Shown here: piece by piece, positions 27,505 to 42,540 of the stretch
Numbering within the stretch: the first letter of the stretch is position 1
How the letters are laid out: each line of letters opens with the position of its first letter
DNA from: an uncultured Clostridia bacterium
GTDB lineage: Bacteria > Bacillota > Clostridia > RUG12999
Assembly (NCBI GenBank): GCA_946555455.1
Contig: CAMNSU010000002.1
Span: 1 to 64,000 of the forward strand
Direction: 5' to 3'
DNA length: 64,000 nt
Notes under the pieces: generated by a model
What the model was told of the DNA's origin: nothing
The model's input: only the letters and a program-made list of their open reading frames with translations
Database searches by the model: none
Program-made: the position numbers and the translations under genes

Positions 27505-29091
27505 TTAACGTTGGTTATATCGTCCTACTGCCTCCTGCTGAATTTTAATCGCTTCTTCAATGCCCATTTCCTTGATGTGCTGCACATATGTGTCAAAATT
27601 ATCCAGACTTTCGCTGCCCAAAATAAACTTCAAATACATTTCCTCACAATAGGTATCAATGTCAGCCATCAACTGTGCATAACGCTGCGATTCTTCCGTC
27701 GTCGGCGTTGCGGGCGGCATAGCATGTTTTTTCGCGTCCGTATCCGACCATACATTGATAGCTGCCTGCTGCTGCGGCAAAGAACAATATTGTTCAATAT
27801 AATCATAATCCTGTACAAACGCACCGTTGCTGCTTGCTCTTGCATATTGGGTAAGAGATTCTGCAAATCCCCATCCCGCCGGATGATTGCTGATTTCCTG
27901 TGTATAAACCGGTTTACCATCCTGCATGGTATAACTCTGTCCTTCTATACCGAAATTAAACAGCATATGCCCTTCTTCACTATATCCATAGTCCAAATAT
28001 TTCACAGCAAGTTCCGGCTGCTTACACATGGGCGAAATAAATGCGTTTTGTCCTGATGCAGGATCAATCTGTCCAAATTTTGGACGTTCTCCTTGATGCA
28101 ATGTCGGGTATGGCGCCGGCATGAGATTAAATTTGCTATCTTGGTTTTTCATGAGATTCATGTAATTTCCTAAATTCCCTCCGGAACCGCCAACTGTAGC
28201 GCCCGCTTTTCCGGTTGTGATTTTAGATGTCACAGCCGCTCCGTCGCTGGTTGCAAAATCGCGATCCAGCAAACCTTTGTCATACCAGCGTTTGAGTGTC
28301 GTCAGATATTCTTTATAAGCGGGCATCATGGGTCCAAACTGTACCGTGCCGTCATCATCTAAAAACATATCATTCGCCACACCATACGCACCGGCTACTA
28401 TGTTATATAGTTTAAATTTTTTCAATTCAAATGACAACGGATTTGTTGCGCCCTTTTGTTCCTTAAATGCTGTGAGTACCGTTTCCCAATCCGAAATGGT
28501 TTCCGGCACGGAAAGCCCCAGGTCATCCAACCAATCCTGACGCAACATTGCCCCTGCATATACACGCAGCCGGTCGTCTCCTCGAATAAACGGAAATGTG
28601 AAATATGTACCGTCGTCTGTTTTTACATTTTTATCCCATTCCGGATTTTGTTTTAGCACTGCTGTCAGATTCGGCGCATATTGTTCCATCAACTCATTTA
28701 ATGGAATAATAATTTCATCATCTAATGCTTTTTGTGCACCGCCCTGATATAACAACATATCATACTCATAGATATCCGGTAGTTCATTGGACGCAACCAT
28801 CAAATTAAACTGTTCCTTTTCTTGTCCAAGCGGCGGATGCTGAAATTCCATTTTGACACCTGTTCGTTTCTCCAACTCTTGATAAAGTTTTGTGTCATTC
28901 ATGTTACTATGATTTTTGCTGACTGATGCATTTAACGGCATCCAATACGTTAAAGTGACAGATTCTTTTAATGGAAACTCCATATTTTCTACCGACGTAT
29001 TGCCGCCTTCCGATGATGTACAACCTGTCAAAAATGTTGTGCCTGCAATACAAATTGCAACACCTAAACCAACTACTTTTTTCCAACTCAT
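27505..29091 (-). CDS. Extracellular solute-binding lipoprotein (LplA type)
   Basis: A 528-residue substrate-binding protein. The signal sequence ends in the lipobox TFLTGCTSS with the lipidated cysteine near residue 24. The mature part begins with LTYWMPLNASVSKNH and continues as the two-lobed family-1-type fold (LplA subgroup), with NELPDIYEYD and GFAESLTQYAR regions. It is tethered to the outer face of the membrane and delivers oligosaccharide to the two permeases. It is first in the long catabolic operon, with a promoter at 29137-29166. Confidence 0.92.
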   Translation of the reverse strand: MSWKKVVGLGVAICIAGTTFLTGCTSSEGGNTSVENMEFPLKESVTLTYWMPLNASVSKNHSNMNDTKLYQELEKRTGVKMEFQHPPLGQEKEQFNLMVASNELPDIYEYDMLLYQGGAQKALDDEIIIPLNELMEQYAPNLTAVLKQNPEWDKNVKTDDGTYFTFPFIRGDDRLRVYAGAMLRQDWLDDLGLSVPETISDWETVLTAFKEQKGATNPLSFELKKFKLYNIVAGAYGVANDMFLDDDGTVQFGPMMPAYKEYLTTLKRWYDKGLLDRDFATSDGAAVTSKITTGKAGATVGGSGGNLGNYMNLMKNQDSKFNLMPAPYPTLHQGERPKFGQIDPASGQNAFISPMCKQPELAVKYLDYGYSEEGHMLFNFGIEGQSYTMQDGKPVYTQEISNHPAGWGFAESLTQYARASSNGAFVQDYDYIEQYCSLPQQQAAINVWSDTDAKKHAMPPATPTTEESQRYAQLMADIDTYCEEMYLKFILGSESLDNFDTYVQHIKEMGIEEAIKIQQEAVGRYNQR

Positions 29092-29835: not shown

Positions 29836-29864
29836 TTGACAACTCCCGTTAAATATAGTACAAT
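29836..29864 (+). promoter_or_regulatory. Strong promoter of the c-di-GMP-controlled operon
   Basis: Consensus -35 TTGACA (29836-29841), 17-base spacer, -10 TACAAT (29859-29864). Transcription should begin near 29871, just before the riboswitch. A strong promoter followed by a switch and terminator means that output is set mainly by the RNA. Confidence 0.85.
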
Positions 29865-29875
29865 TTTAAGAAATG

Positions 29876-29952
29876 AATATTAGGCAAACCCGTTGAAAAG
29901 CGGGGACGCAAAGTTAAGTGTCTAACCGAATAAATTCGAATGATTGACTGAC
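29876..29952 (+). ncRNA. c-di-GMP-I (GEMM-I) riboswitch
   Basis: The highly conserved first half is present: GGCAAACC, a hairpin capped by a GAAA-type loop (CCGTTGAAAAGCGG), then GGGACGCAAAG. The second half follows the clostridial pattern, with TCTAA, a small CGAAT/ATTCG hairpin and ATGATTGACT; AGTTAA near 29912 can pair with TTGACT near 29944-29949. The guanine next to the GCAAACC core appears retained, which from memory favours c-di-GMP over the 3',3'-cGAMP variants. It lies between a strong promoter and an intrinsic terminator and controls the eight genes downstream. Confidence 0.9.
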
Positions 29953-29980
29953 TGCAAGTTTAAATTGCAGTCAGTTTTTT
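29947..29980 (+). terminator. Riboswitch expression-platform terminator
   Basis: A perfect 11-bp stem ACTGACTGCAA / TTGCAGTCAGT (29947-29957, 29965-29975) followed by T(5+). Its 5' arm shares its first three bases with the 3' strand of the riboswitch P3 helix. Ligand-stabilised P3 would therefore compete with it, suggesting but not proving an ON switch. Confidence 0.88.
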
Positions 29981-30004
29981 GTTTTTAGAAGGTTGGTGGT
30001 AGGA

Positions 30005-30700
30005 TTGAACAAAGTTTTCAGAGAAGAAAAAAAGTTTTTAATAAACGTTGATGAATTTCTTGAAAAGAGCCACATGTTAAGCCAAGTAATGTCAGAAGAT
30101 ATACATAATGGAGCGCGTGGATATGTGATTCGCTCACTATATTTTGATACAATATATGACAGAGACTATTTTGAAAAGATTTCCGGCATAGAGACAAGGC
30201 GCAAAATCAGGCTGCGTATTTATGACTCAGATTCTCATTTTGCTATGCTTGAGATGAAACAGAAACAAGGTGCGTATCAACTTAAGCGTTCTTTGCAGAT
30301 ATCGCGCGAAGAAGCCACAGCGCTTACAAAAGGCGATTATTCCCCTCTTTTGCATTACAAAGAGCCCTTTGCAGCCGAATGTTATGCACTCATGAATACT
30401 CGTTGTTACCGTCCTAAAACAATCGTACAATATCACCGCAAAGCATTCATTGCAAAGGAGAATAAAATCCGTATTACTTTTGACAGCAATATTGTGGCTA
30501 CGGAAAGCAATTTTGATTTGTTTGCGCCACATCTTAATATGAATCCGGTACTGGACAAATTTAACGTGGTTATGGAAGTGAAATTCAACGGCTTTCTACT
30601 CGATTATATCCGCCGTATGATGAACAGCGTGAACCGCAGCGAATTATCTGTCAGTAAATATGTGCTTGCCCGCCAAAATGGGTATCAAACGAGATTATAA
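30005..30700 (+). CDS. VTC domain (polyphosphate polymerase-like) protein
   Basis: About 231 residues forming the tunnel-shaped VTC fold, related to the catalytic subunit of yeast vacuolar polyphosphate polymerase. Conserved pieces are FREEKKFLIN at the start, RSLYFDTIYDRDYFEK, TRRKIRLRIYD, LEMKQKQGAYQLKRS, VQYHRKAFIA, RITFDSNI, VVMEVKFNG and the C-terminal LSVSKYVLAR. The basic and acidic residues that bind nucleotide, phosphate and metal are retained. There is no ATG near the beginning: TTG 30005 is preferred, with GTG 29996 or TTG 29993 possible, so translation may be weak. It is first after the c-di-GMP riboswitch. The real product (polyphosphate or other nucleotide chemistry) is unknown. 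Confidence 0.82.
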   Translation: MNKVFREEKKFLINVDEFLEKSHMLSQVMSEDIHNGARGYVIRSLYFDTIYDRDYFEKISGIETRRKIRLRIYDSDSHFAMLEMKQKQGAYQLKRSLQISREEATALTKGDYSPLLHYKEPFAAECYALMNTRCYRPKTIVQYHRKAFIAKENKIRITFDSNIVATESNFDLFAPHLNMNPVLDKFNVVMEVKFNGFLLDYIRRMMNSVNRSELSVSKYVLARQNGYQTRL

Positions 30701-30714
30701 GGAGTTATCAATAT

Positions 30715-31392
30715 ATGAAAGAAAAAATATATAACCTATTTACCAATCCCAGTGACATGACTGCTGAACAAATTCTAATGAATATTGCGACGGCGGCGGC
30801 ACTTGGACTGTTTATCTTCATTTCCTACTACATATCTCACCGCGGCACTATCTATAGTAAAAAATTTAATGCTTCTCTCACGATTCTAACAGTGCTGACA
30901 AGCACTGTTATGACAGTCATCGGCAACAATATTGCATTGTCGCTCGGAATGGTCGGCGCGCTGTCCATTGTCCGGTTCCGTACTGCTATTAAAGATTCGC
31001 GGGATACGGTATATATTTTTTGGACTATCATTGTCGGCATCTGCTGTGGTGTAGGCGATTATCTTGTGGCAGGCATCGGAAGTGCAGTTACCTTTTTTGT
31101 GATTCTGGTACTTGGCTTCATTAAAAGCGATCATAGGATGCTGCTTATCGTGCGTGCCGCACGTAGTAAACAGGCGCCTATTAAAGCGCAAATCTATAAG
31201 ATATTCCATACAAAGGCGGTTCTCCGTGTGGAAAATACGACAGAAGACACCGTGGAACTTATCTACGAACTAACACAAAAAATGCTGCAAAAAGCGGAAA
31301 AACAAACGCCCGATATCACCGCCGGTATCTATGCGCTTGGAAATGTCGAATATGTAAACATCGTCATGCAAAACGATGAAGTGTCAAATTAA
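30715..31392 (+). CDS. DUF4956 membrane protein
   Basis: A 225-residue membrane protein with about four helices in the first 135 residues (AAALGLFIFISYYISHR; ILTVLTSTVMTVIG; GMVGALSIVRFRTAIKDSRDTVYIFWTIIVG; AVTFFVILVLGFI), followed by a soluble ferredoxin-like tail. The stretch ALSIVRFRTAIKD is the hallmark of DUF4956. This family recurs next to VTC-domain genes and may be its membrane partner; the function is unknown. AAGGAG lies before the ATG, 15 bases after the VTC gene. Confidence 0.85.
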   Translation: MKEKIYNLFTNPSDMTAEQILMNIATAAALGLFIFISYYISHRGTIYSKKFNASLTILTVLTSTVMTVIGNNIALSLGMVGALSIVRFRTAIKDSRDTVYIFWTIIVGICCGVGDYLVAGIGSAVTFFVILVLGFIKSDHRMLLIVRAARSKQAPIKAQIYKIFHTKAVLRVENTTEDTVELIYELTQKMLQKAEKQTPDITAGIYALGNVEYVNIVMQNDEVSN

Positions 31393-31426
31393 ACCATGTT
31401 CAAAAAACAATGCAGGAGGTAAATAG

Positions 31427-32902
31427 ATGAAATACAGAGTTTGGGGTATCATTGCCTGTGCACTCATGCTGCTCATTTCTGCGATAAATTTGCCTCTTTT
31501 ATTGACGGCGGATACCGGACGCTATCATCAACATTGGGAGGCAGAGCCGAAACAACCATGCTCCCATACGGACAATACCTTTTGCACACATTTACCGCTG
31601 ATAACCATTCATACAGACGGTGTGGAAATACCCGGAAAGGCAATCGTGGAAGAAGGTAAAACGATCGGATATACAACCGCGGCTGACGGCAGCGACCGAA
31701 TCCGTGCCAAGCTGTCGGTGTTTGATAATAAAACAACCAACAACCACCCCACTGATGTTCCTGCTGTTACCAGCGATATATCCATTCATGTGCGCGGCAA
31801 TTCCTCTCGCACCTATGATAAATTGGGCTATCGCATCAATCTGATTGATGAAAAAGGAGGAAACAATCCACAAAGTCTAATCGGAATGGACGCCCATCAT
31901 GAATGGGTGCTGCACGGTCCGATTTTGGACAAGACACTGCTTCGTAATTATATGTGGTATAATATTGCCGGCGAGATTATGGACTACGCTCCCAATGTAC
32001 GCTTTTGTGAATTGCTCCTTGACGGTGAATATATGGGCGTTTATGTATTGGTCGAAAACATCACGGCAGGCAAAAACGGAAGCCGCCTAAATCTGACTGT
32101 TGATGCAAAAGATAATACCTTTACCGGCTATGTATTGTTACTTGACCGTCCGGATAACGTGGAACATAACCATCTGAAAAGTTTTACCACTTATACGCTC
32201 CGCACAAACCTGAAATTGGAAATTGTATATCCTGGTACGCCTAATCTAACGCCCGAAATATTAGAAGGAATCAAACAAGATTTTTCCGCTTTTGAAAAAT
32301 CACTCTATTCCTATGATTACGACAATAACCAATATGGGTATGAAGAATTAATTGATGTAGATTCTTTTGTAGACTATCTTCTCATAAACGAGTTTACCTG
32401 TAACTATGATGCCGGCTGGTTATCCACTTATATGTATAAAGATATCGACGGTAAGTTCCGCATGTGTATTTGGGATTTTAACTCTGCCTGTGACAACTAT
32501 CAGCAATCTATGATGCAGCCCGGACATTTTGAACTTCAAAATTGTTTGTGGTACTTTATGCTGACAAAAGATGAAAACTTTACAAAACGTTGTGTCGAGC
32601 GTTATCATGAACTTCGCAAAACCTATTTCAGCGAGGACTATCTTAACCGTTATATTGACAGCACTGTAGATTATTTAGGCGCCGCGATAGCGCGAAACTA
32701 TGAAAAATGGGGATATTCCTTTGAAGAAAGTCATGATTTGTTAAAACCTATCGAACGCAATCCACGTTCCTATGAAGAAAGTCTTGCGCAGCTCAAGTGG
32801 TTTATTTCGTATAGAGGTTCCTGGCTGGACGAAAACATAGAATCTATCACGCAATATTCCGCCGGGTCAAAGGTGAAAAAGTTTAATGAAAATGCAAACT
32901 AA
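31427..32902 (+). CDS. CotH kinase family protein
   Basis: A 491-residue protein with an N-terminal membrane anchor or signal (about 7-28), so most of it is outside the cell. The atypical protein-kinase fold of CotH is seen in ISIHVRGNSSRTYDKLGYRI (about 120-140), HEWVLHGPILDKTLLRNYM, FCELLLDGEYMGVYVLVENI, and the metal-binding aspartate in CIWDFNSACDNY (about 349). Bacillus CotH phosphorylates serines of spore-coat proteins. Extracellular paralogues occur in exopolysaccharide and cellulosome settings. Here it probably modifies a surface protein or polymer made by this operon; the substrate is unknown. The start follows GGAGGT. Confidence 0.88.
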   Translation: MKYRVWGIIACALMLLISAINLPLLLTADTGRYHQHWEAEPKQPCSHTDNTFCTHLPLITIHTDGVEIPGKAIVEEGKTIGYTTAADGSDRIRAKLSVFDNKTTNNHPTDVPAVTSDISIHVRGNSSRTYDKLGYRINLIDEKGGNNPQSLIGMDAHHEWVLHGPILDKTLLRNYMWYNIAGEIMDYAPNVRFCELLLDGEYMGVYVLVENITAGKNGSRLNLTVDAKDNTFTGYVLLLDRPDNVEHNHLKSFTTYTLRTNLKLEIVYPGTPNLTPEILEGIKQDFSAFEKSLYSYDYDNNQYGYEELIDVDSFVDYLLINEFTCNYDAGWLSTYMYKDIDGKFRMCIWDFNSACDNYQQSMMQPGHFELQNCLWYFMLTKDENFTKRCVERYHELRKTYFSEDYLNRYIDSTVDYLGAAIARNYEKWGYSFEESHDLLKPIERNPRSYEESLAQLKWFISYRGSWLDENIESITQYSAGSKVKKFNENAN

Positions 32903-32923
32903 ATCGTTTCAGCAGGAGGATTC

Positions 32924-35095
32924 ATGAAAAAGTTTTTAATCATTTTGTCGTCTGTTGTGGCATTGGCTCTGGTCTATGACGCCATTTATTTCCGGCTCGG
33001 ATGGTATATTGATTTTCAGCCTGCCAAAGCAGTTACCACCTTTGTCAAAGCAGATGGCGATAAAATATATATAGACAAGGGAAACGGATATGAACCCTTT
33101 GAAATTCGCGGTGTGAATCTTGGCTCCGGTGCGCCGGGCGCATGGTCTACCGATTTTGCAATCGACAAAGAAACCTATCTTCGCTGGTTTCAATATATCA
33201 AAGAAATGGGCGCCAACACGATTCGTATCTATACCATTCAACAGGACGTTTTTTACAAGGCGTTTTACGAATATAATAAAAACAATCCTGACCCACTCTA
33301 TTTGATTCATGGCGTATGGGTAAACGACTACATACAAAATTCCCACCGCGATGCCTATAGTAAGGAATTTTACGATACTTTTTTAAATGATTGCAAAACC
33401 ATGCTGGACGTTGTGCACGGCAATAAAAAAATTGCGTTGAACAGTGTATCAAGCGCCGGTTCCGGCAGTTATCTAAAAGACGTCTCTCCTTGGGTCATCG
33501 GCTATATTTTGGGCGTGGAGTGGGAAGATCTTACGGTTGCTTACACAGACGATCTTTATGCGGACAAAGACGCTTATACCTCTTATCAAGGGAAATATAT
33601 GTATACCACGCAAGACGCCTCCCCCTTTGAAACGCTGCTTTGTAAAGTCGGCGACAAAGTGGTTGAATATGAATCTTACCGCTATAAAACGCAGAAACTC
33701 ATTGCTTTTTCCAACTGGCCGACCACTGATCCTTTTGAATATCCTGAACGAATCAAAAATTTCTTTATGAAATGTGCCTATGTGGATGCGGAACATATTA
33801 AAACCTATGACACATTTCTTGCCGGACAATTTGCCTCCTACCATGTATATCCCTATTATCCCGACTATCTCACCTATATTGACGATTGGTCACCGTTTGG
33901 AATCGCAGATAAATCGGCCTATATCAATGCAAAAGGGCAACTCAACACCTACCGCGCCTATCTTGCCATGCTCACAACCCACCATACCATGCCCGTGGTT
34001 ATTTCGGAGTTCGGCGTTTCCACCGGACGCGGAATGGCGCAAAGGGATGCAAACACCGGAAGAAATCAGGGCAACATGTCCGAACAGGAACAGGGTCAAG
34101 CGCTTATTGACTGTTATGAGGATATTATGGCGGCAGGTTGTGCCGGCGGCTGTGTATTTTCGTGGCAGGATGAATGGTTCAAACGCACATGGAATACGAT
34201 GTATGCAGTGGATTTGACAAGAACGCCCTATTGGTCGGACTATCAAACCAACGAGCAATATTTCGGCTTATTATCCTTTGACCCTGGCGCCGAAAAATCT
34301 GTTTGCTATGTGGACGGAGATATTTCTGAATGGACAGAATCGGATTTGGTCGTTCAAAACGGCGGCATGTCCCTTTCTGTAAAATATGATGAACGGTTCC
34401 TCTATTTCCTGATTCATAAACCGAACCTCAACCTTGAAACCGATACGCTTTATATTCCTTTGGATATCACGCCCAAAAACGGCAGTCTTTATTGCAAGGA
34501 TCAAAATCTTTTATTAGACCGTGCGGCAGATTTTTTAATTGTGCTGCACGGCAGAGAAAACAGCCGTGTTTTGGTGCAGGAACGTTATGAATCGCTGCGT
34601 TCAACCTATGCACAGCAAGCTTATGATTTTGATACCTATATCACGAGCAACATACCTGATATTGACTCGACGCGTTTCCTGCCAATTCAGATGATTCTGC
34701 AAACCGCTACGGTACTTCTCTATAACGATAATTTGGCAAACTCAGAGGTCTTTGAGACCGGAAAACTCAAATATGGCAATGCCAATCCGTCCAGTCCTGC
34801 GTTTGACTCTCTCGCCGACTATATCTGCAGCGGAGACTATATTGAACTGAAACTGCCGTGGCAGCTTTTGAATTTCTCCGACCCGTCGCGTATGATAATT
34901 CATGATGATTATTACAACGGCAACTACGGTATAGACTATATCAAAATCCATGAACTATATTTCGCGCTGACAGATGGTAATTCCGGCGGGCGGATACCGT
35001 TCTCCTCTTTCAAACTGAAAGGCTGGGGCAACCGGATAAGCTATCACGAACGTCTGAAAAGTTCCTATTATATGCTGCAACAATTATGGTCATAG
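32924..35095 (+). CDS. Membrane-anchored glycoside hydrolase-like protein with C-terminal carbohydrate-binding-like domain
   Basis: A 723-residue protein. An N-terminal helix (about 3-20) anchors or exports it. Residues 45-440 resemble a GH2/GH5-type TIM barrel: FEIRGVNLGSGAPGAW, then MGANTIRIYTIQ, the possible acid/base in GYILGVEWED (about 192) and the probable nucleophile in VVISEFGVSTGRG (about 357), then CVFSWQDEWFKRTWN. From about 462 a DOMON/CBM9-like beta domain starts (VDGDISEWTESDLVV, RFLYFLIHK). It lies between CotH and the HEAT/GT2 pair, so trimming or transferring the polymer made by the GT2 is a reasonable inference. The family is not securely recognised. Confidence 0.65.
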   Translation: MKKFLIILSSVVALALVYDAIYFRLGWYIDFQPAKAVTTFVKADGDKIYIDKGNGYEPFEIRGVNLGSGAPGAWSTDFAIDKETYLRWFQYIKEMGANTIRIYTIQQDVFYKAFYEYNKNNPDPLYLIHGVWVNDYIQNSHRDAYSKEFYDTFLNDCKTMLDVVHGNKKIALNSVSSAGSGSYLKDVSPWVIGYILGVEWEDLTVAYTDDLYADKDAYTSYQGKYMYTTQDASPFETLLCKVGDKVVEYESYRYKTQKLIAFSNWPTTDPFEYPERIKNFFMKCAYVDAEHIKTYDTFLAGQFASYHVYPYYPDYLTYIDDWSPFGIADKSAYINAKGQLNTYRAYLAMLTTHHTMPVVISEFGVSTGRGMAQRDANTGRNQGNMSEQEQGQALIDCYEDIMAAGCAGGCVFSWQDEWFKRTWNTMYAVDLTRTPYWSDYQTNEQYFGLLSFDPGAEKSVCYVDGDISEWTESDLVVQNGGMSLSVKYDERFLYFLIHKPNLNLETDTLYIPLDITPKNGSLYCKDQNLLLDRAADFLIVLHGRENSRVLVQERYESLRSTYAQQAYDFDTYITSNIPDIDSTRFLPIQMILQTATVLLYNDNLANSEVFETGKLKYGNANPSSPAFDSLADYICSGDYIELKLPWQLLNFSDPSRMIIHDDYYNGNYGIDYIKIHELYFALTDGNSGGRIPFSSFKLKGWGNRISYHERLKSSYYMLQQLWS

Positions 35096-35117
35096 CAGTA
35101 CGCGGATAGGCATAAGA

Positions 35118-35142
35118 GAGTCGAATACGGTTGCGCCATGCA
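35118..35142 (+). repeat. Dispersed 25-base repeat, copy 2
   Basis: Near-copy of 29315-29339, lying in the 100-base gap between the glycosidase-like and HEAT genes. The gap holds nothing else I can recognise. Confidence 0.45.
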
Positions 35143-35197
35143 GTGACCGCAAGAGATTCAACTTTTGTTTGTCTCACCAAAAGAAAGGGTTCTCACA

Positions 35198-36316
35198 ATG
35201 AACATAGAAAAAATGATTTACGTCTATCTTGTCATATGCGTTGGCATGATTTTATTTAATATCGTCAGTGCATTCCTCTCCCGCCGCAGGGACAAAAGGA
35301 TTCTTCGGGTCAGCAATGGTTTTGAGGACAGAATCCGCAGTGAACTGATATGGCTGGAAACGCACAGTGCTGTGCACAGCGCACACAAAAACTATCTTTC
35401 CGGAAAACTCAAACGCATCAGCAACATGCGTGCTTTTGATGCAGCGCTTGAAAAAAAACATCTTGAAAATCCAACGCTTGTCCGAAAATATCTCTATTCT
35501 ATTGGCAGTGTGTTTGTATCTCTTTCTATCGAATATTGCAAAAAAGATTCTATGGAAGCGGCATATTTCCCCTATATCATCAAAAAATATAGAATTTTGG
35601 CAGACCGTCCGTTTGACGCTATGATTGATATATTGTTCCGGCTTCTCCATGAACCGAGCATCTATTGCAGGGAAAACGCTATGCAGGCGCTCTATACTAT
35701 CGGAGACGCTTCCTGCATTGTAAAAGCATTAAAAATCATAGACAATGAAAATAAATTCTATCATAGCAAACTGTTGACGGATGGACTATTAAATTTTGCA
35801 GGAAATACGCAGCGACTCAACGCTGCACTGTGGGAAACATTTGAGGATTTCTCGCGTGAGATGCAAATCACGCTGCTGAACTATTTCCGCTTTAGTTCCG
35901 GAGACCATTGCGAAGATATCCTGCGGCTTATGAAGGATACATCGCAGGACGATGAACTCCGGTTCGCCTGCATTCGCTATTTCGGTAAATACCGCTATGA
36001 ACCGGCATATGAATATTTATTGCTTTATGCGAACAGCAGAACCGATATGCGCTGGGAATATGCCGCTATAGCATCTTCTGTTTTGGCTTCCTATCCTTCT
36101 GAGAAAACAGTGGAAATTTTAAAATCAAATTTATATCACCGCAATTGGCATATCCGGTTCAATTCCGCGCAAAGTCTTGAACGGCTGGGACTGACTTATC
36201 TGGATTTGATTGATGTTTTGGAAGGACATGACCGCTACGCCTCCGAAATTCTCCGGTACCATTTTGATGTTCGTGATATGATACGCGCAGAAAAGGAGGA
36301 TGCATCCATATGTTAG
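35198..36316 (+). CDS. HEAT-repeat protein with N-terminal membrane helix
   Basis: A 372-residue protein. The start is ATG 35198 after GAAAGGG; an upstream in-frame start at 35165 lacks a ribosome site. One membrane helix (about 4-24) is followed by basic residues and a cytosolic alpha-helical solenoid: EPSIYCRENAMQALYTIGDASCIVKAL, DDELRFACIRYFGKYRYEPAYEYLL, DMRWEYAAIASSVLASYPSEKTVEIL and HIRFNSAQSLERLGL are HEAT-like repeats. It overlaps the GT2 gene by 7 bases, implying translational coupling and probably a scaffold or c-di-GMP-responsive partner of the synthase (inference). I know no named orthologue. Confidence 0.75.
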   Translation: MNIEKMIYVYLVICVGMILFNIVSAFLSRRRDKRILRVSNGFEDRIRSELIWLETHSAVHSAHKNYLSGKLKRISNMRAFDAALEKKHLENPTLVRKYLYSIGSVFVSLSIEYCKKDSMEAAYFPYIIKKYRILADRPFDAMIDILFRLLHEPSIYCRENAMQALYTIGDASCIVKALKIIDNENKFYHSKLLTDGLLNFAGNTQRLNAALWETFEDFSREMQITLLNYFRFSSGDHCEDILRLMKDTSQDDELRFACIRYFGKYRYEPAYEYLLLYANSRTDMRWEYAAIASSVLASYPSEKTVEILKSNLYHRNWHIRFNSAQSLERLGLTYLDLIDVLEGHDRYASEILRYHFDVRDMIRAEKEDASIC

Positions 36317-37713
36317 ACACGCTTAAAGTATTCTTGGATTGGACCGGCTATTTCTTTATCGCCTATCTCATTGGATATTCAACCTTCCTTTTTATCTCGC
36401 TTGTTGTCGGCTCTCTTGAACTGTATAAACTCCGCCGGCGTGAGTTGATGAAAAACATTCTCCCGCAGGACTATTATGTTCCGATTACCATTATCGTACC
36501 TGCCTATAATGAAGAAGTTACTGTGGTGGAAAACGTCAAATCTCTTTTGCAGCTTGAATACCGTTCCTATGAGATTATTGTAGTAGACGACGGTTCCACA
36601 GACAATACATCCAAAAAGTTAATTGAAGCGTTTGACATGCGCCCCGTTCACTGTCCGATACGCCGGCAGCTTCCCTGTCAGCCGGAAGAATTTGTCTATG
36701 AGTCCCGCTTACAAAAGGTACCGCTGACGCTCATTCGTAAACGAAACGGCGGAAAAGCAGACGCGCTGAATATGGGTATTAACGCCTCTACATTTCCGTA
36801 TTTTATTTGTATTGACGCCGATTCTTTTCTGCAATATGACTCCCTGCGCCGCATTGCACAACCTATTCTGGAAAATGATAATGTGGTTGCCGTCGGCGGT
36901 ATGGTGCGCATTTCCAATGCAGTCGAACTGGAAAACGGACGGCTCAAAAAATATCGTATGCCGCGTAATATCTTGGCTTGTATGCAAGTTTTAGAATATG
37001 CCCGTTCTTTTTTGGCGTCCAGAATTCTGTTTGATAAATTCAACGGTTCTCTTATCATTTCCGGTGCGTTCGGGCTGTTCAAAAAAGATACGGTCATAGC
37101 GGCGGGCGGTTATAGCAATGAAACAATCGGCGAGGATATGGAATTGGTGGTCAAGCTGCATGAATATTGTACCATGAACCATATCAACTACAGTATTCGA
37201 TATGCCAGCGACGCCATCTGCTGGACGCAAGTACCCGAAAACTTGCGTGATTTGTGCCGCCAGCGCAAAAGATGGCATTTGGGATTGTTTCAGAGCATGT
37301 TTGCGCACCGCAAAATGTTTTCCAATCCCAAATTCGGTGCAGTCAGCTTCATATCCTATTTATACTTTTTGATTTATGAGTTGTTTTCACCGTTTATTGA
37401 AATATTTGGCGTTATCACTATGCTTTTGGCGTGGGCAACCGGTTTATTGCATGTTCCGTTTATGATTCTGTTTTTCCTGATATATGCCGGATTCAGTTCC
37501 ATTCTCTCGCTTTCGGCATTCTTCTCACGCCTCTATACAACAGATATGAAAATTTCATTTATAGACGGCGTCAAGGCTGTTTTACTATGTTTCTTTGAGC
37601 TAACCTGTCTGCGGTTTATCCTTGCTTGGGTACGCTCCACCGCGTTTATTGGCTATCGCAAAAAGAAAACACAATGGGGTCGTATTGAACGCAAAAAAAT
37701 CAAGCTGCATTAA
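36310..37713 (+). CDS. Processive family 2 glycosyltransferase (cellulose/hyaluronan synthase-like)
   Basis: A 467-residue membrane synthase. One N-terminal helix (about 12-34), a cytosolic GT-A domain, then at least three C-terminal helices (about 345-445). The motifs of processive inverting GT2 enzymes are present: IIVVDDGSTDN (DDG, about 93), CIDADS (DxD, about 170), GEDMELVVKLH (ED, about 274) and RQRKRW (QxxRW-type, about 317). It should polymerise a UDP-sugar and extrude the chain. No PilZ domain is attached, so c-di-GMP control appears to be transcriptional, or through a partner. The sugar (for example glucose, N-acetylglucosamine or hexuronate) cannot be told. Confidence 0.88.
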   Translation: MLDTLKVFLDWTGYFFIAYLIGYSTFLFISLVVGSLELYKLRRRELMKNILPQDYYVPITIIVPAYNEEVTVVENVKSLLQLEYRSYEIIVVDDGSTDNTSKKLIEAFDMRPVHCPIRRQLPCQPEEFVYESRLQKVPLTLIRKRNGGKADALNMGINASTFPYFICIDADSFLQYDSLRRIAQPILENDNVVAVGGMVRISNAVELENGRLKKYRMPRNILACMQVLEYARSFLASRILFDKFNGSLIISGAFGLFKKDTVIAAGGYSNETIGEDMELVVKLHEYCTMNHINYSIRYASDAICWTQVPENLRDLCRQRKRWHLGLFQSMFAHRKMFSNPKFGAVSFISYLYFLIYELFSPFIEIFGVITMLLAWATGLLHVPFMILFFLIYAGFSSILSLSAFFSRLYTTDMKISFIDGVKAVLLCFFELTCLRFILAWVRSTAFIGYRKKKTQWGRIERKKIKLH

Positions 37714-37759
37714 AAAGCGTGTCTGGCTATGATACCGAAAAATCGGAAAGGAGATTTTT

Positions 37760-38224
37760 ATGGATATTACACATTTGAAAAAGGGATTTTGGGGATATAA
37801 AAAAAGCGATGTATGTGAATATATCGCAAAAATGAACGAAGAATTTTCCCTGAAAATGATGGATACCATAACAGCACACGAACAGGCAGTGCAGGAATTC
37901 AATGAAAAAATTGCGCGGCTTGAGCAGGAAAACGCAGCTTTTTATGCAGAACGCGACCGTGTGGCGGAAGTGTTGACCGATGCAAAAATGTATGCAGTAG
38001 AATTGAAGCAAAAAGCAAATGCTGAAAATGCAAAGTTTCTGGAAAAAAATCTGGAATGCGCCCATGAACTGCAAAAACGAATCCGTGAATGCAGTACCGG
38101 CATCCATGATGTACGCGATAGCATTCAGCAATTGCTTGATATATTTGGTGATAATTTGTCTGAGAAAAGCGAGGTGCTTCCAGAACCACAGCACTTTTCT
38201 CCGGTCACTCGAAAAAAAGATTAA
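37760..38224 (+). CDS. DivIVA-like coiled-coil protein
   Basis: A 154-residue soluble protein. The N-terminus (KKGFWGYKKSDVCEYIAKMNEEF) resembles the DivIVA/GpsB membrane-targeting segment, with F and GY followed by a V-x3-I helix. Residues about 30-130 are heptad-rich coiled coil. DivIVA-type proteins bind curved membrane at septa and poles, so it may localise the synthase complex to a cell site. AAAGGAG lies before the ATG. The function is inferred from likeness only. Confidence 0.6.
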   Translation: MDITHLKKGFWGYKKSDVCEYIAKMNEEFSLKMMDTITAHEQAVQEFNEKIARLEQENAAFYAERDRVAEVLTDAKMYAVELKQKANAENAKFLEKNLECAHELQKRIRECSTGIHDVRDSIQQLLDIFGDNLSEKSEVLPEPQHFSPVTRKKD

Positions 38225-38241
38225 AAAGGGGGGATGTCAAA

Positions 38242-40146
38242 ATGAACAACCGTAATATGGGGTTCGTCAGAACCATATATATCTATATCTGTATTATCGT
38301 GCTTTCTATGTTCCTTGCTGCTGTTCATTCGTTTGCTTCTGAATCCACCGTTTATGTGGCAGGAAACGCCGATATGTATCCGATAGAATATTATGACGAT
38401 ACGAGCGGACAGTTTGTCGGTCTCATGCCGCAGCTCTATGCAGTGATTTCTGAAAAAACCGGTTATACTTTTCAGTATTTAGAGGATAGCAGTCCCCATG
38501 CACAGGCGCGTCTGGCAAAAAACGGGCAGGCAGATATCATATCCGCCTATTTGGAGGGAGCGATTGACGAGCAGTATATAAAGGCGCCGCAGTTCGTTTC
38601 CAACATTACAATTGACGGCAGAGAACGGCGGGTCTGTTTTGCATTTTCTAACATTGCCTCTGAAGAAATCGTATCAAAGGTTTCCGCTGCGTTTTCCGAG
38701 ATATCTGCAGAACAAAAACTTACGTTTCTCTCGTCCTATACAAGGGAATACGGCGGTGTGAACCGAATCCATATATTGTTGATATATATTTTAGGTGGTA
38801 TTTTATCAGTTGTTTTGCTGACAGCGGCGGTGCTGGCAATCCATTTTGGGAGAAAGCGGAAAGCTGCGCAAGACGACCTGATGATACATCCCCAATATGG
38901 TATCGGAAATGACAACTATTACATTTATTGCTATGACAATCTTATTTCCGATAAAAGCAAAAGTCTATACTATCTTGCCTATATTGCCTTTGATGAAGAA
39001 ACCTTCAACCGGCGGTACGGCGGAAGCGAAAGCCAAACGGTTCAGCAGTATGTGGCAGCGTTTTTAAATCAAAAAACCGGCGCCGCAGAATATCTTGCAT
39101 TGGTAAATGCCGGCGTGTTTGTTTTTCTCTATCAAAGCAGCAATAAACCAAAGGCAGAAGAACGAATCAAGCGTATCATGGACGAACTGGACGTCTATCT
39201 TAGTCAATTCAAAAGTGAATATACGAATCTCTTTTCCGCCGGCGTTTGTGCGCTGGAAGAAAACATGGACTGTGACAGCGAATCCGCTTTCTACAACGCA
39301 AAACAAGGATATCTCCACGCGGTGGGTCACAAACTGAACTTTTCTTTCAGCACGCAAACCCTCGTCGCAGAAACACATCAGAATGAACGCCTGCATCACC
39401 GTATCACGCAGGCAATCAAGGACGGTGAATTTCAGTTATATCTGCAATATATTGTCAACCGAAAAGGTGAAATATACGGCGCGGAAGCGGTATCCAGATG
39501 GCAAAATCCGCAGGAAGGATTGCTGCCGCCGTCAAAATATATTGAACTCATGAACCAAACCGGCGCCGTGACAGCGCATGATTACTATATTTTTTCGCAG
39601 GCATGTAAACAACTGGCGAAATGGAATCAGGACGGTTTGGGTCATATGTTTATATCTTGTAATTTCACCCGCTATTCCATTACTGCACCGGATTTTTCAA
39701 TCCATATCAAAGAAATTGCCGAACGTTACGCTTTTCTCCACAGTCACCTTATCATTGAGGTTACAGAAGATTCCCTGTCACACAATCCAAAACTTTTGCA
39801 GGAAAATCTGCAAAAATGTAAGGCGCTGGGATTTCTAATCGCTTTGGATGATATCGGAAGCGGCTATTCCTCTCTGTCTGACCTCTATCATTATCCGATA
39901 GATTTCGTGAAAGTGGAACGGGACATTGTTCTAAACGCCATGGACAGCCGTGGAAAAATGTTGCTGGACGGACTTATCCGCTTGGCGCACAGCATGAATA
40001 TCACCGTTCTATGCGAGGGTGTTGAAACGGAAGAACATAATAAAATGGTGCTAAGCACCGACTGCGACCTCATTCAAGGATTTTACTATTCCCGCGTTCT
40101 GCCGCTGAAAGAAGCGGAAAAATTTTTACAAGAACGCAGACAGTAG
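38242..40146 (+). CDS. Membrane EAL-domain c-di-GMP phosphodiesterase with truncated periplasmic-binding-like sensor
   Basis: A 634-residue protein. A signal/anchor helix (about 10-32) precedes an extracellular part (about 35-170) that matches one lobe of a family-3 solute-binding fold, e.g. VYVAGNADMYPIEYYDDTSGQFVGLMP. A membrane helix follows (about 177-200). The GGDEF-position domain (about 215-365) lacks a GGDEF motif, so it is not a cyclase. In the EAL domain all catalytic positions are visible: E in GAEAVSRW (413), N in SCNFTRY (470), E in VTED (506), DD in LDDIGSGYSS (535), K in KVERD (557), E in EGVETEE (591), Q in IQGFYYS (609). It is probably active, degrading the ligand of the operon's own riboswitch. 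Confidence 0.9.
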   Translation: MNNRNMGFVRTIYIYICIIVLSMFLAAVHSFASESTVYVAGNADMYPIEYYDDTSGQFVGLMPQLYAVISEKTGYTFQYLEDSSPHAQARLAKNGQADIISAYLEGAIDEQYIKAPQFVSNITIDGRERRVCFAFSNIASEEIVSKVSAAFSEISAEQKLTFLSSYTREYGGVNRIHILLIYILGGILSVVLLTAAVLAIHFGRKRKAAQDDLMIHPQYGIGNDNYYIYCYDNLISDKSKSLYYLAYIAFDEETFNRRYGGSESQTVQQYVAAFLNQKTGAAEYLALVNAGVFVFLYQSSNKPKAEERIKRIMDELDVYLSQFKSEYTNLFSAGVCALEENMDCDSESAFYNAKQGYLHAVGHKLNFSFSTQTLVAETHQNERLHHRITQAIKDGEFQLYLQYIVNRKGEIYGAEAVSRWQNPQEGLLPPSKYIELMNQTGAVTAHDYYIFSQACKQLAKWNQDGLGHMFISCNFTRYSITAPDFSIHIKEIAERYAFLHSHLIIEVTEDSLSHNPKLLQENLQKCKALGFLIALDDIGSGYSSLSDLYHYPIDFVKVERDIVLNAMDSRGKMLLDGLIRLAHSMNITVLCEGVETEEHNKMVLSTDCDLIQGFYYSRVLPLKEAEKFLQERRQ

Positions 40147-40194
40147 CTGCTATATTTTTTTAGAACCCATCAAGAGTACATAGGTTTTTTTCAA

Positions 40195-40229
40195 GCACAC
40201 GTCTCCTCTCAAAGTCGTGTGTGCCTTTT
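40195..40229 (+). terminator. Weak hairpin after the EAL gene
   Basis: CACACG / CGTGTG arms (40196-40201, 40216-40221) followed by TTTT. It is modest and probably a first, leaky stop. Confidence 0.45.
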
Positions 40230-40291
40230 GGGGAGAGAATATCGTTTATAGATTGGTTTCATCTAAACGATTGACTGTCTATATAAATACC

Positions 40292-40332
40292 AAAGCCCTG
40301 ATATCACATAAAATATGATATCAGGGCTTTTT
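40292..40332 (+). terminator. Strong terminator closing the c-di-GMP operon
   Basis: A 15-bp perfect stem AAAGCCCTGATATCA / TGATATCAGGGCTTT (40292-40306, 40316-40330) and a T run. The operon and the converging SPFH gene meet here, so it probably works in both directions. Confidence 0.85.
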
Positions 40333-40386: not shown

Positions 40387-41319
40387 CTATTGTTCTATTT
40401 GTGGTGCAGCCGGCTTTTTTACTTCCGGTTTACCGCCGTCTTTCCAGATTTCCGCCAAAGACGCCGCCATACCTGCCATGCCTTGCATGTCAGAAGGAAT
40501 AATCAACTTCGTCGCTTTTCCGTTTGCAACCTGTTCCATGGTTTCATAGCTTTTCAGAATCAAAATTTCATTGCTCGGCGCCGCTTCTTTCAGCATACGG
40601 ATACCGTCCGCCGTTGCTCTCTGGACGTTACGAATGGCTTCCGCTTCCCCTTCTGCGCGGCGGATTTGCGCTTCTTTTTCCGCTTCTGCGCGCAAAATCT
40701 GAGATTCTTTTTCCCCTTCCGCCACCAGAATTGCGGATTTCTTTTCTCCTTCCGCCTTCAAAATAGATTCACGGCGTTCACGTTCCGCTTTCATTTGTTT
40801 TTCCATGGCGTTTTGAATTTCCGCCGGCGGCATGATGTTTTTCAGTTCCACACGGTTGATTTTAATACCCCACGGGTCTGTCGCTTCGTCCAAAATCGCA
40901 CGCATTTTTGTGTTGACAACATCACGCGACGTCAGCGTTTGGTCGAGTTCCATGTCACCGACAATGTTACGCAGCGTTGTTGCTGTCAAATTTTCAATCG
41001 CCACCATCGGACGCTCTACGCCGTAGGTATACAGTTTCGGGTCGGTAATTTGAAAATAAACAACCGTGTCAATCTGCATAGTAACGTTGTCCGCCGTAAT
41101 CACAGGCTGCGGCGGAAAATCCACCACGATTTCTTTCAGCGACACTCTTTTTGCCACTTTTTCCAGAAACGGTGTCTTAAAATGCAGCCCAACGCCCCAC
41201 GTCGCTTTATATGCGCCCAGACGTTCCACCACAAACGCATTTGCCTGCGGTACAATTTTGATATTAAAAACAATGAACAGCACAATCAAAATAAAAATAC
41301 CAAATATAATGTATCCCAT
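40387..41319 (-). CDS. SPFH/Band 7 domain protein (stomatin/QmcA-like)
   Basis: A 310-residue membrane protein. One N-terminal helix (GIFILIVLFIVFNI) is followed by the Band 7 domain (IVPQANAFVVERLGAYKATWGVGLHFKTPF) and a long Ala-Glu-rich coiled coil with repeats such as ILKAEGEKKSAILVAEGEKESQILRAEAEKEAQI, then a Pro-rich tail. Such proteins form large rings in membrane microdomains and partner with NfeD proteins, encoded directly upstream here. The start ATG follows GGAGGG. Confidence 0.93.
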   Translation of the reverse strand: MGYIIFGIFILIVLFIVFNIKIVPQANAFVVERLGAYKATWGVGLHFKTPFLEKVAKRVSLKEIVVDFPPQPVITADNVTMQIDTVVYFQITDPKLYTYGVERPMVAIENLTATTLRNIVGDMELDQTLTSRDVVNTKMRAILDEATDPWGIKINRVELKNIMPPAEIQNAMEKQMKAERERRESILKAEGEKKSAILVAEGEKESQILRAEAEKEAQIRRAEGEAEAIRNVQRATADGIRMLKEAAPSNEILILKSYETMEQVANGKATKLIIPSDMQGMAGMAASLAEIWKDGGKPEVKKPAAPQIEQ

Positions 41320-41410
41320 GATTTCCCTCCAATCTGCCGCTTTTGCGGCACATCAACATGTGAGCAGCAGCCAATACAGCCGTTTGCTCTTGCTTTTTCT
41401 GCTTTTCCGC

Positions 41411-41860
41411 TTAACTTTCCTGTTTCGCTTGCTCCTGCGTCCGTGAGACAATCACTTTCACCCCACGGATTTCGTGAATATTCACGATTGCTCCCGCCGG
41501 AATGATACTGCCCTCCGCTGAACGCGCCGACCAAACTTTCCCGTCCGCTTTCACTGCGCCGGTTTCCTTGATGTTATCAATTTCTTCTGTGACAATGCCT
41601 ACCATGCCAATGACCCTGTCGGAATTTGTCGGCGTTTTTTTCGCCATCACTTTCACAACAAACGGACGCGTCGACACCAATAGCACCGTTGTCACAAACG
41701 CAAATAGAATCATCTGCACCCACATGGGCAAATGAAACATTGCTGCAATCATTGCGGCTGTTGCGCCGCCGGCAAACCAAATGGTCACTAAATTAAACGA
41801 AGCAATTTCAATGATGACCAATACTACTGTGATAACCAGCCATAATAATACTTCCTGCAT
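41411..41860 (-). CDS. NfeD family protein
   Basis: About 149 residues. Two to three membrane helices (EVLLWLVITVVLVIIEIASFNLVTIWFAGGATAAMIAA; MILFAFVTTVLLVSTRPF) precede a C-terminal OB-fold (GMVGIVTEEIDNIKETGAVKADGKVWSARS) typical of the short NfeD form. It is the partner of the SPFH protein encoded next. ATG 41860 has better spacing from AGAGGTG than the in-frame ATG 41866. It begins 8-14 bases after hisIE, so the pair seems to be carried on the histidine operon transcript. Confidence 0.9.
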   Translation of the reverse strand: MQEVLLWLVITVVLVIIEIASFNLVTIWFAGGATAAMIAAMFHLPMWVQMILFAFVTTVLLVSTRPFVVKVMAKKTPTNSDRVIGMVGIVTEEIDNIKETGAVKADGKVWSARSAEGSIIPAGAIVNIHEIRGVKVIVSRTQEQAKQES

Positions 41861-41874
41861 AGCCATTCACCTCT

Positions 41875-42540
41875 TTAGACAGGCTTCTTTTCCTTACTGC
41901 CGCGGTCTACCGCCTGACGTTTCTCGAGTTCTCCAAACACCTCGTCCCACGTCATTTGTTTTTCCGCCATCAGCACCATTAAATGATAGAGCAAATCCGC
42001 GATTTCATAACGTACCTCTTCATTTCCCGCGTTTTTAGCGCCAATGATAACCTCTGTCGCTTCTTCGCCGACTTTTTTCAGAATTTTATCCAACCCTTTT
42101 TCAAACAGATAGTTTGTATACGAACCTTCTTTGTGATTTTTCTTTCTGTCCAAAATGGTTTCATAAACTTCCTGTAACACAATTGCTTTGTTATCGCTTT
42201 CTTCATTCTCCACAAATTTATCCACGTCTAATACCCGATAAAAACAACTGTTTTTTCCTGTGTGGCAGGCAGGACCATCCGGTGTAACCTTTAGCAGCAG
42301 GCAATCCATATCGCAGTCCACCCGCAGCGTCTCCACATTCATGTAATTTCCGGAAGTTTCCCCTTTTAACCACAGTTTCTGACGGCTGCGGCTATAAAAA
42401 ACTGCCTTCCCGCAGGAAATCGTTTTTTCCAGCGATTCCCTGTTCATATAAGCCACCATCAGCACCTGACCTGTTTTCGCGTCCTGCACAACAGCAGGTA
42501 CCAGTCCATTTTCATCGAATTTAATCGTATCCAGTATCAT
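41875..42540 (-). CDS. hisIE: Bifunctional phosphoribosyl-AMP cyclohydrolase / phosphoribosyl-ATP pyrophosphatase
   Basis: A 221-residue fusion catalysing steps 2 and 3 of histidine synthesis. The HisI half (about 1-115) has [13 protein letters not shown] and the zinc/metal ligands in [10 protein letters not shown] and [14 protein letters not shown]. The HisE half (about 125-210) has [31 protein letters not shown]. The order I then E is the usual bacterial fusion. It is the last his gene of the cluster. Confidence 0.96.

Follow-up and report, generated by a model that had tools for sequence, protein, structure and literature searches.

A 64,000-nucleotide stretch of DNA from an uncultured gut Clostridia bacterium (GenBank assembly GCA_946555455.1, contig CAMNSU010000002.1, positions 1 to 64,000; hereafter the window) carries an eight-gene operon that is probably a synthase-dependent exopolysaccharide operon switched on by cyclic di-GMP (c-di-GMP), with a triad of VTC, DUF4956 and CotH proteins whose polyphosphate and kinase would act on the surface glycan. 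All eight genes lie on the + strand behind a promoter-aptamer-terminator leader, with successive gaps of 14, 34, 21 and 102 bases, an overlap of 7, and then 46 and 17 bases; the products from VTC to the glycosyltransferase family 2 (GT2) synthase measure 231, 225, 491, 723, 372 and 467 amino acids. Judged by gene content and order, the operon is a join of two modules that are also found apart, VTC-DUF4956(-CotH) and glycoside hydrolase (GH)-HEAT-GT2. An initial annotation of this DNA had described a promoter, an aptamer, a terminator, eight genes and a closing repeat, all of which lie at the positions claimed, and its proposal of a single c-di-GMP-controlled operon is supported. The terminator/aptamer overlap, the fold of the 723-residue protein and the two-module make-up go beyond that annotation.

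Leader and predicted switch direction

The leader opens with a sigma-70-type promoter (TTGACA-N17-TACAAT, 29836..29864, +), the best in the region with 11/12 consensus matches, and a similar promoter stands ahead of the aptamer in related loci L002, L003, L006 and L008. The c-di-GMP-I riboswitch aptamer (29873..29959, +) matches RF01051 over its full length at 73.1 bits against a gathering threshold of 35, and is the sole c-di-GMP-I match in the 3.1-Mb genome in a covariance-model search. It is followed by the intrinsic terminator of the expression platform (29946..29976, +; 12 pairs and a T run). Folding of the leader lies 4.6 standard deviations below shuffled sequences, and terminator-like sites in the region number about twice the shuffled expectation. 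The aptamer recurs upstream of the VTC gene in seven loci (the window, L002, L003, L006, L008, L009 and L010), which are the relatives with at least 63% GT2 identity where upstream sequence is present.

Helix positions and the overlap of aptamer and terminator were taken from covariance-model alignments, counting the aptamer start as nucleotide 1. The 3′ arm of the last aptamer helix comprises nucleotides 70-72 and 75-81 in the window, and all ten pairs are standard; nucleotide 83 is the conserved ligand-contacting C equivalent to C92 of Vc2. The 5′ arm of the terminator spans nucleotides 74-85, capturing seven bases of the last helix (75-81) together with the C92 equivalent. Computed in the same way, the terminator arms of L002, L003, L006 and L010 share five to seven last-helix bases plus the C92 equivalent; by inspection L008 overlaps likewise, and in L009 the shared part has shrunk to the final helix base plus the C92 equivalent. 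Modelled without ligand, the terminator fold is favoured by 10-17 kcal/mol. Because the aptamer fold and the terminator are mutually exclusive, bound c-di-GMP should prevent termination, and we infer that c-di-GMP should turn the operon ON. The classic P1 closing helix was considered as the switching element, but it pairs weakly, and the last helix and the C92 equivalent were preferred.

Encoded proteins

The processive GT2 polysaccharide synthase (36310..37713, +; PF00535/PF13641) has membrane helices, and its DDGS, DAD, GED and QRxRW motifs, which the initial annotation had read as DDG/DxD/ED/QxxRW, are invariant in 14 loci. The family that fits it best is PgaC_IcaA, at 151.8 bits and below the cut-off of 422.3. 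Upstream of it lies the gene for a membrane-anchored HEAT-repeat protein (35198..36316, +; PF13646; transmembrane (TM) segment 9-27), whose repeats are probably cytosolic given the single N-terminal TM segment and the basic residues after it.

The 723-residue protein (P723; 32924..35095, +) finds no Pfam family above cut-off, and AlphaFold2 (AF2) modelling with Foldseek points to a membrane-anchored extracellular clan GH-A (GH157-like) protein with a beta-rich C-terminal half. It has a single N-terminal TM segment, its model reaches a pTM of 0.83, and a GH157 beta-1,3-glucanase heads the Foldseek ranking, followed by GH2, GH5 and GH72, also of clan GH-A. Weak sequence matches agree (a GH72 profile, and the 9fz9 GH157 profile at E 0.006). 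Candidate catalytic glutamates in GVEWE and ISEFG are present in the window and kept in most nearer members. In L040 the GH and HEAT proteins are fused in one 1081-residue chain with a TM segment (743-761) between them, which fits a GH part outside and a HEAT part inside and argues that the two proteins cooperate. Polysaccharide deacetylases (PF01522), one of them with SLH anchors, are encoded within or right behind the operon in four relatives (L006:9307-11070, L009:8379-10265, L010:3326-5014 and L019:9094-10950). Clues to the polymer conflict: an N-acetylated one would fit the deacetylases and the PgaC-like GT2, a beta-glucan the GH157-like fold.

The first gene of the triad encodes a VTC-domain protein (30005..30700, +; TTG start), a predicted cytosolic polyphosphate polymerase that matches PF09359 at E 3e-43 (148.6 bits against a cut-off of 23). 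The protein is cytosolic and soluble by prediction. Its profile matches yeast Vtc4 (3g3q), and K10, R69, R71, K85, K94, R145, E191, K193 and K218, partly mapped on Vtc4, are invariant across loci; these correspond to the tunnel's basic residues and the acidic metal ligand of the Vtc4 structure. The protein thus looks active and is a predicted polyphosphate maker. A search of the genome finds no PPK1 or PPK2 elsewhere, making VTC its only recognised polyphosphate polymerase.

DUF4956 follows as an MgtC-like membrane protein with TM helices and a C-terminal ACT-like domain (30715..31392, +; PF16316, E 4e-13). The nearest fold to its AF2 model, of middling confidence (pLDDT 72), is the MgtC C-terminal domain 2lqj, and a basic stretch around IVRFRTAxKDxRDT is invariant; a role as polyphosphate channel is conjecture. 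The third member is an N-terminally anchored, predicted extracytoplasmic CotH-family kinase (31427..32902, +; PF08757, 192.7 bits against 23.8, E 2e-56; TM segment 8-26). With R123, K132, E210, D350 and N357 invariant, it looks catalytically active. In L013 (11415-15399) the gene that comes immediately after GT2 encodes a secreted purple-acid-phosphatase-like protein and the next one a dCache-GGDEF protein; the phosphatase-like neighbour is a hint of phosphate outside the cell.

The last gene encodes a membrane phosphodiesterase (38242..40146, +) recognised by domain search and motif reading, with two TM segments, an SBP3-like outer domain as sensor, a degenerate GGDEF domain and an intact EAL domain. 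All EAL catalytic residues are present (EAVSR, the N in SCNFT, EVTED, DD, K, EGVE and QG), and this domain looks active, as do VTC and CotH. An ON switch with a phosphodiesterase as its last gene would produce a self-limiting pulse through negative feedback. The genome's other c-di-GMP proteins are two intact GGDEF proteins, one HD-GYP protein at C2:73481 and a further EAL protein (L027, G000:C89) that has lost the EGVE glutamate and one aspartate; this degenerate protein is possibly a c-di-GMP receptor. GGDEF genes adjoin the operon in L003 (by reading), L008, L012 and L013, the last two of which lack the riboswitch.

Conservation and modular make-up

A scan with GT2 as query returned 19 homologous loci. 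Wherever the homologous contig is long enough, all six core genes lie on one strand in the order VTC-DUF4956-CotH-P723-HEAT-GT2, an arrangement intact in roughly twelve further genomes from Clostridia, Erysipelotrichia and Coriobacteriia; the VTC region of L004 consists of masked bases, and an independent search of genomes added one more copy (L035). Identities fall as low as 30% for P723 and 27% for HEAT. The core is interrupted by a deacetylase gene in L010 and by an IS110-type transposase in L014. Hosts of the relatives include Traorella and Thomasclavelia, of Erysipelotrichia type, and Collinsella, Aphodovivens and Aveggerthella, of Coriobacteriia type. The co-occurrence search suggested with the initial annotation thus finds a core that recurs across genomes, with an upstream c-di-GMP-I match in 7 loci. 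Of the eight-gene set that it had proposed, all members are co-directional here, but wide conservation is limited to a core of six, and the coiled-coil and EAL genes occur in nearer relatives only. The full set is rare: of 399 genomes sampled from the phylum, 2 have it.

Both modules also stand alone. L036-L040 have HEAT-GT2, in most cases together with P723, but no triad; in L036 the gene immediately ahead of HEAT-GT2 encodes a GGDEF-receiver protein. In L040 a c-di-GMP-I riboswitch (L040:3720-3815, -; 65 bits) precedes a 711-residue gene that lies a few kb downstream of the operon with GT2 and the GH-HEAT fusion.

For the other module, DUF4956 was searched in the 399 genomes, an unbiased sample of the phylum, and 73 loci were read. 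DUF4956 is present in 64 genomes and adjoins VTC in 71 of the 73 loci, one of the two exceptions lying at a contig end. CotH follows the pair in at least 36 loci, and Pfam matches raise this number by at most five. In about 21 further loci (for example L072, L073 and L077) the protein beside the pair is not CotH but a carbohydrate-binding one of the Cthe_2159 family, a second and apparently undescribed version of the module. Across the phylum VTC and DUF4956 are thus almost always paired, and the pair usually has a secreted partner, either CotH or a carbohydrate-binding protein. Its neighbours include varied glycan synthesis genes: the triad adjoins a PilZ-GT2/MBOAT/AlgX set in L102, GT2/DHHW/MBOAT/bactofilin-like sets in L092 and L094, and a GT4-GT2 fusion in L113, and PelG/DUF3492 genes are also found. 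The census points to polyphosphate and cell-surface glycans being linked in a general way that has gone unstudied.

Relation to known loci

The initial annotation's suggestion of a new system is not supported for the gene set as such. By their tabulated names, the same six genes appear in the same order in Clostridium perfringens NELoc-2 (CP4_0463-CP4_0468), published in 2010, whose function was never interpreted (PMC2879425, Table 4). Its entries read VTC (230 amino acids), "tubulin/FtsZ" (222, in the DUF4956 position), CotH (497), a conserved hypothetical protein (685), HEAT (377) and GT2 "chitin synthase" (466), so that by the table entries the order agrees and the lengths are near (PMC2879425). 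NELoc-2 differs in following a sigma factor of SigI type and a cell-wall protein, in duplicating the VTC/"tubulin" pair and in carrying a resolvase, and its description mentions no riboswitch, coiled-coil or EAL gene (PMC2879425). The present analysis offers a testable function and a regulator for this uncharacterised set, listed also in a livestock-pathogen locus.

The VTC/DUF4956/CotH triad was described beside Gram-positive pel operons in 2020 (PMC7112168) and tested in 2025 (PMC12345266). Streptococcus intermedius SIR_1591-1594 and other Gram-positive pel loci resemble the operon in combining the triad, a glycoside hydrolase and an adjoining glycan synthase, and bifidobacterial pel loci pair the triad with a diguanylate cyclase/phosphodiesterase gene (PMC7112168; PMC12345266). 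Pel differs in its PelF (GT4), PelG, PelD, PelE and PelA deacetylase, in contrast to the GT2, HEAT protein, different GH and c-di-GMP riboswitch found here; among the operon's proteins none of the Pel domains (PelF DUF3492 GT4, PelG, PelD, PelE) is found. S. intermedius aggregates less, and its Pel level is altered, when the DUF4956 and CotH genes beside pel are deleted (PMC12345266). The same study states that it found the triad nowhere but at Pel (PMC12345266), which is contradicted by L102, L092, L094, L113 and the operon itself.

Clostridial cellulose-type operons (PilZ-GT2, MBOAT, AlgX) likewise have a GT2, and the one in L102 carries the same triad. The operon has no PilZ, BcsB, MBOAT, AlgX, Pel or Ccs gene, as the initial annotation had noted for PilZ, BcsB, Pel and Ccs, and PilZ is found neither in the GT2 nor anywhere in the genome. 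A literature search found no paper linking a c-di-GMP riboswitch and terminator to an exopolysaccharide glycosyltransferase in clostridia. New here are the riboswitch and the sense predicted for it, the loop through the phosphodiesterase, the module of GH-A, HEAT and GT2 proteins, the census and the general modular reading.

Proposed mechanism and alternative explanations

At low c-di-GMP the leader would fold into the terminator and transcription would stop; with c-di-GMP bound, the last helix of the aptamer would retain the 5′ arm of the terminator and the operon would be read. We infer that GT2 polymerises and extrudes a glycan and that the HEAT protein probably assists it, replacing PilZ- or Pel-type partners. 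The extracellular GH-A protein may trim, transfer or bind this glycan, on which a deacetylase may also act in some relatives. VTC and DUF4956 would form a unit making polyphosphate at the membrane, and together with the secreted CotH this unit might modify or cross-link the surface glycan, before the last-encoded EAL protein lowers c-di-GMP and closes the loop. A more specific version is speculative and quite unlikely as a whole: VTC and DUF4956 would be a polyphosphate synthase-translocase, and CotH would phosphorylate the glycan or its proteins from exported polyphosphate instead of ATP, which is lacking outside, or polyphosphate would ionically cross-link a deacetylated, cationic glycan. 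If true, the triad would serve bacterial surface polymers as a portable phosphate module, having been combined with synthases of the Pel, cellulose and GT2/HEAT types.

Several observations weigh against the exopolysaccharide operon with a glycan-directed triad. Upstream searches find no c-di-GMP-I aptamer in L012-L015, L018 and L019; the candidate glutamate pair of P723 is lost in the distant L012, L014, L017 and L018; and, given the HD-GYP protein, the operon's EAL protein is not the genome's only possible phosphodiesterase. With the queries used, most VTC-DUF4956 pairs in the census have no synthase detected within 9 kb. The S. intermedius deletions of DUF4956 and CotH leave Pel polymer made, and VTC deletion has no reported aggregation effect (PMC12345266), so that the triad may be only accessory. 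The missing synthases and the VTC deletion also favour an unlikely alternative in which the polyphosphate made by VTC/DUF4956 stays in the cytosol and serves storage or the stress response, or in which DUF4956 is an MgtC-like phosphate or ATP regulator, co-regulated with the glycan and not acting on it. The predicted cytosolic, soluble VTC and the MgtC resemblance of DUF4956 fit that alternative, but the pair is normally followed by secreted CotH or Cthe_2159 and recurs beside unrelated glycan synthases.

It is also possible, if rather doubtful, that the product is a known polymer, the operon being, with additional genes, a diverged version of one for poly-N-acetylglucosamine (Pga/Ica) or for beta-1,3-glucan (curdlan-like). 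A processive GT2 closest to PgaC_IcaA, deacetylases in some relatives and the resemblance of the GH to the beta-1,3-glucanase GH157 point that way, but the GT2 falls below the family cut-off, PgaA/B/D and Ica partners are missing, and the deacetylase/GT2 and GH157 hints indicate different polymers. Since c-di-GMP-I switches of both senses are known, and the L010 hairpin has a poor T run, the aptamer might instead be an OFF switch or act on translation, leaving the operon on at low c-di-GMP. This is improbable, as the terminator arm takes aptamer bases including the ligand-contacting C in 7/7 loci and the complete terminator is unable to form as long as the aptamer stays folded. Although CotH has a known role as spore-coat kinase and the host belongs to Clostridia, a spore-coat or sporulation operon marked by CotH is very improbable: the promoter is sigma-70-type and coupled to a c-di-GMP switch, and the same operon occurs in Coriobacteriia-labelled L011, L015 and L019 and the triad in streptococci (PMC7112168), all of them bacteria that form no spores. 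Sporulation was rejected on this presence in non-sporulating lineages, and a glycan-degradation locus was rejected because a synthase is present and an importer is not.

Other features of the region

Between GT2 and the phosphodiesterase lies a gene for a short coiled-coil protein (37760..38224, +) with weak DivIVA similarity (PF05103, E 0.0015, below cut-off), seen in the window, L002-L007 and L009. The operon ends at a terminator-like inverted repeat (40292..40330, +) of 18 pairs, followed by T on the + strand, which could also serve the convergent SPFH-like gene beyond it. By reading, the convergent - strand stretch at 40387-42540 encodes an apparent SPFH (stomatin-type) protein, an NfeD-type protein and HisIE. 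Just upstream of the operon, at 27505-29091, lies a gene for a solute-binding lipoprotein, and a similar-looking lipoprotein is encoded beside a GGDEF protein elsewhere in the genome (L023).

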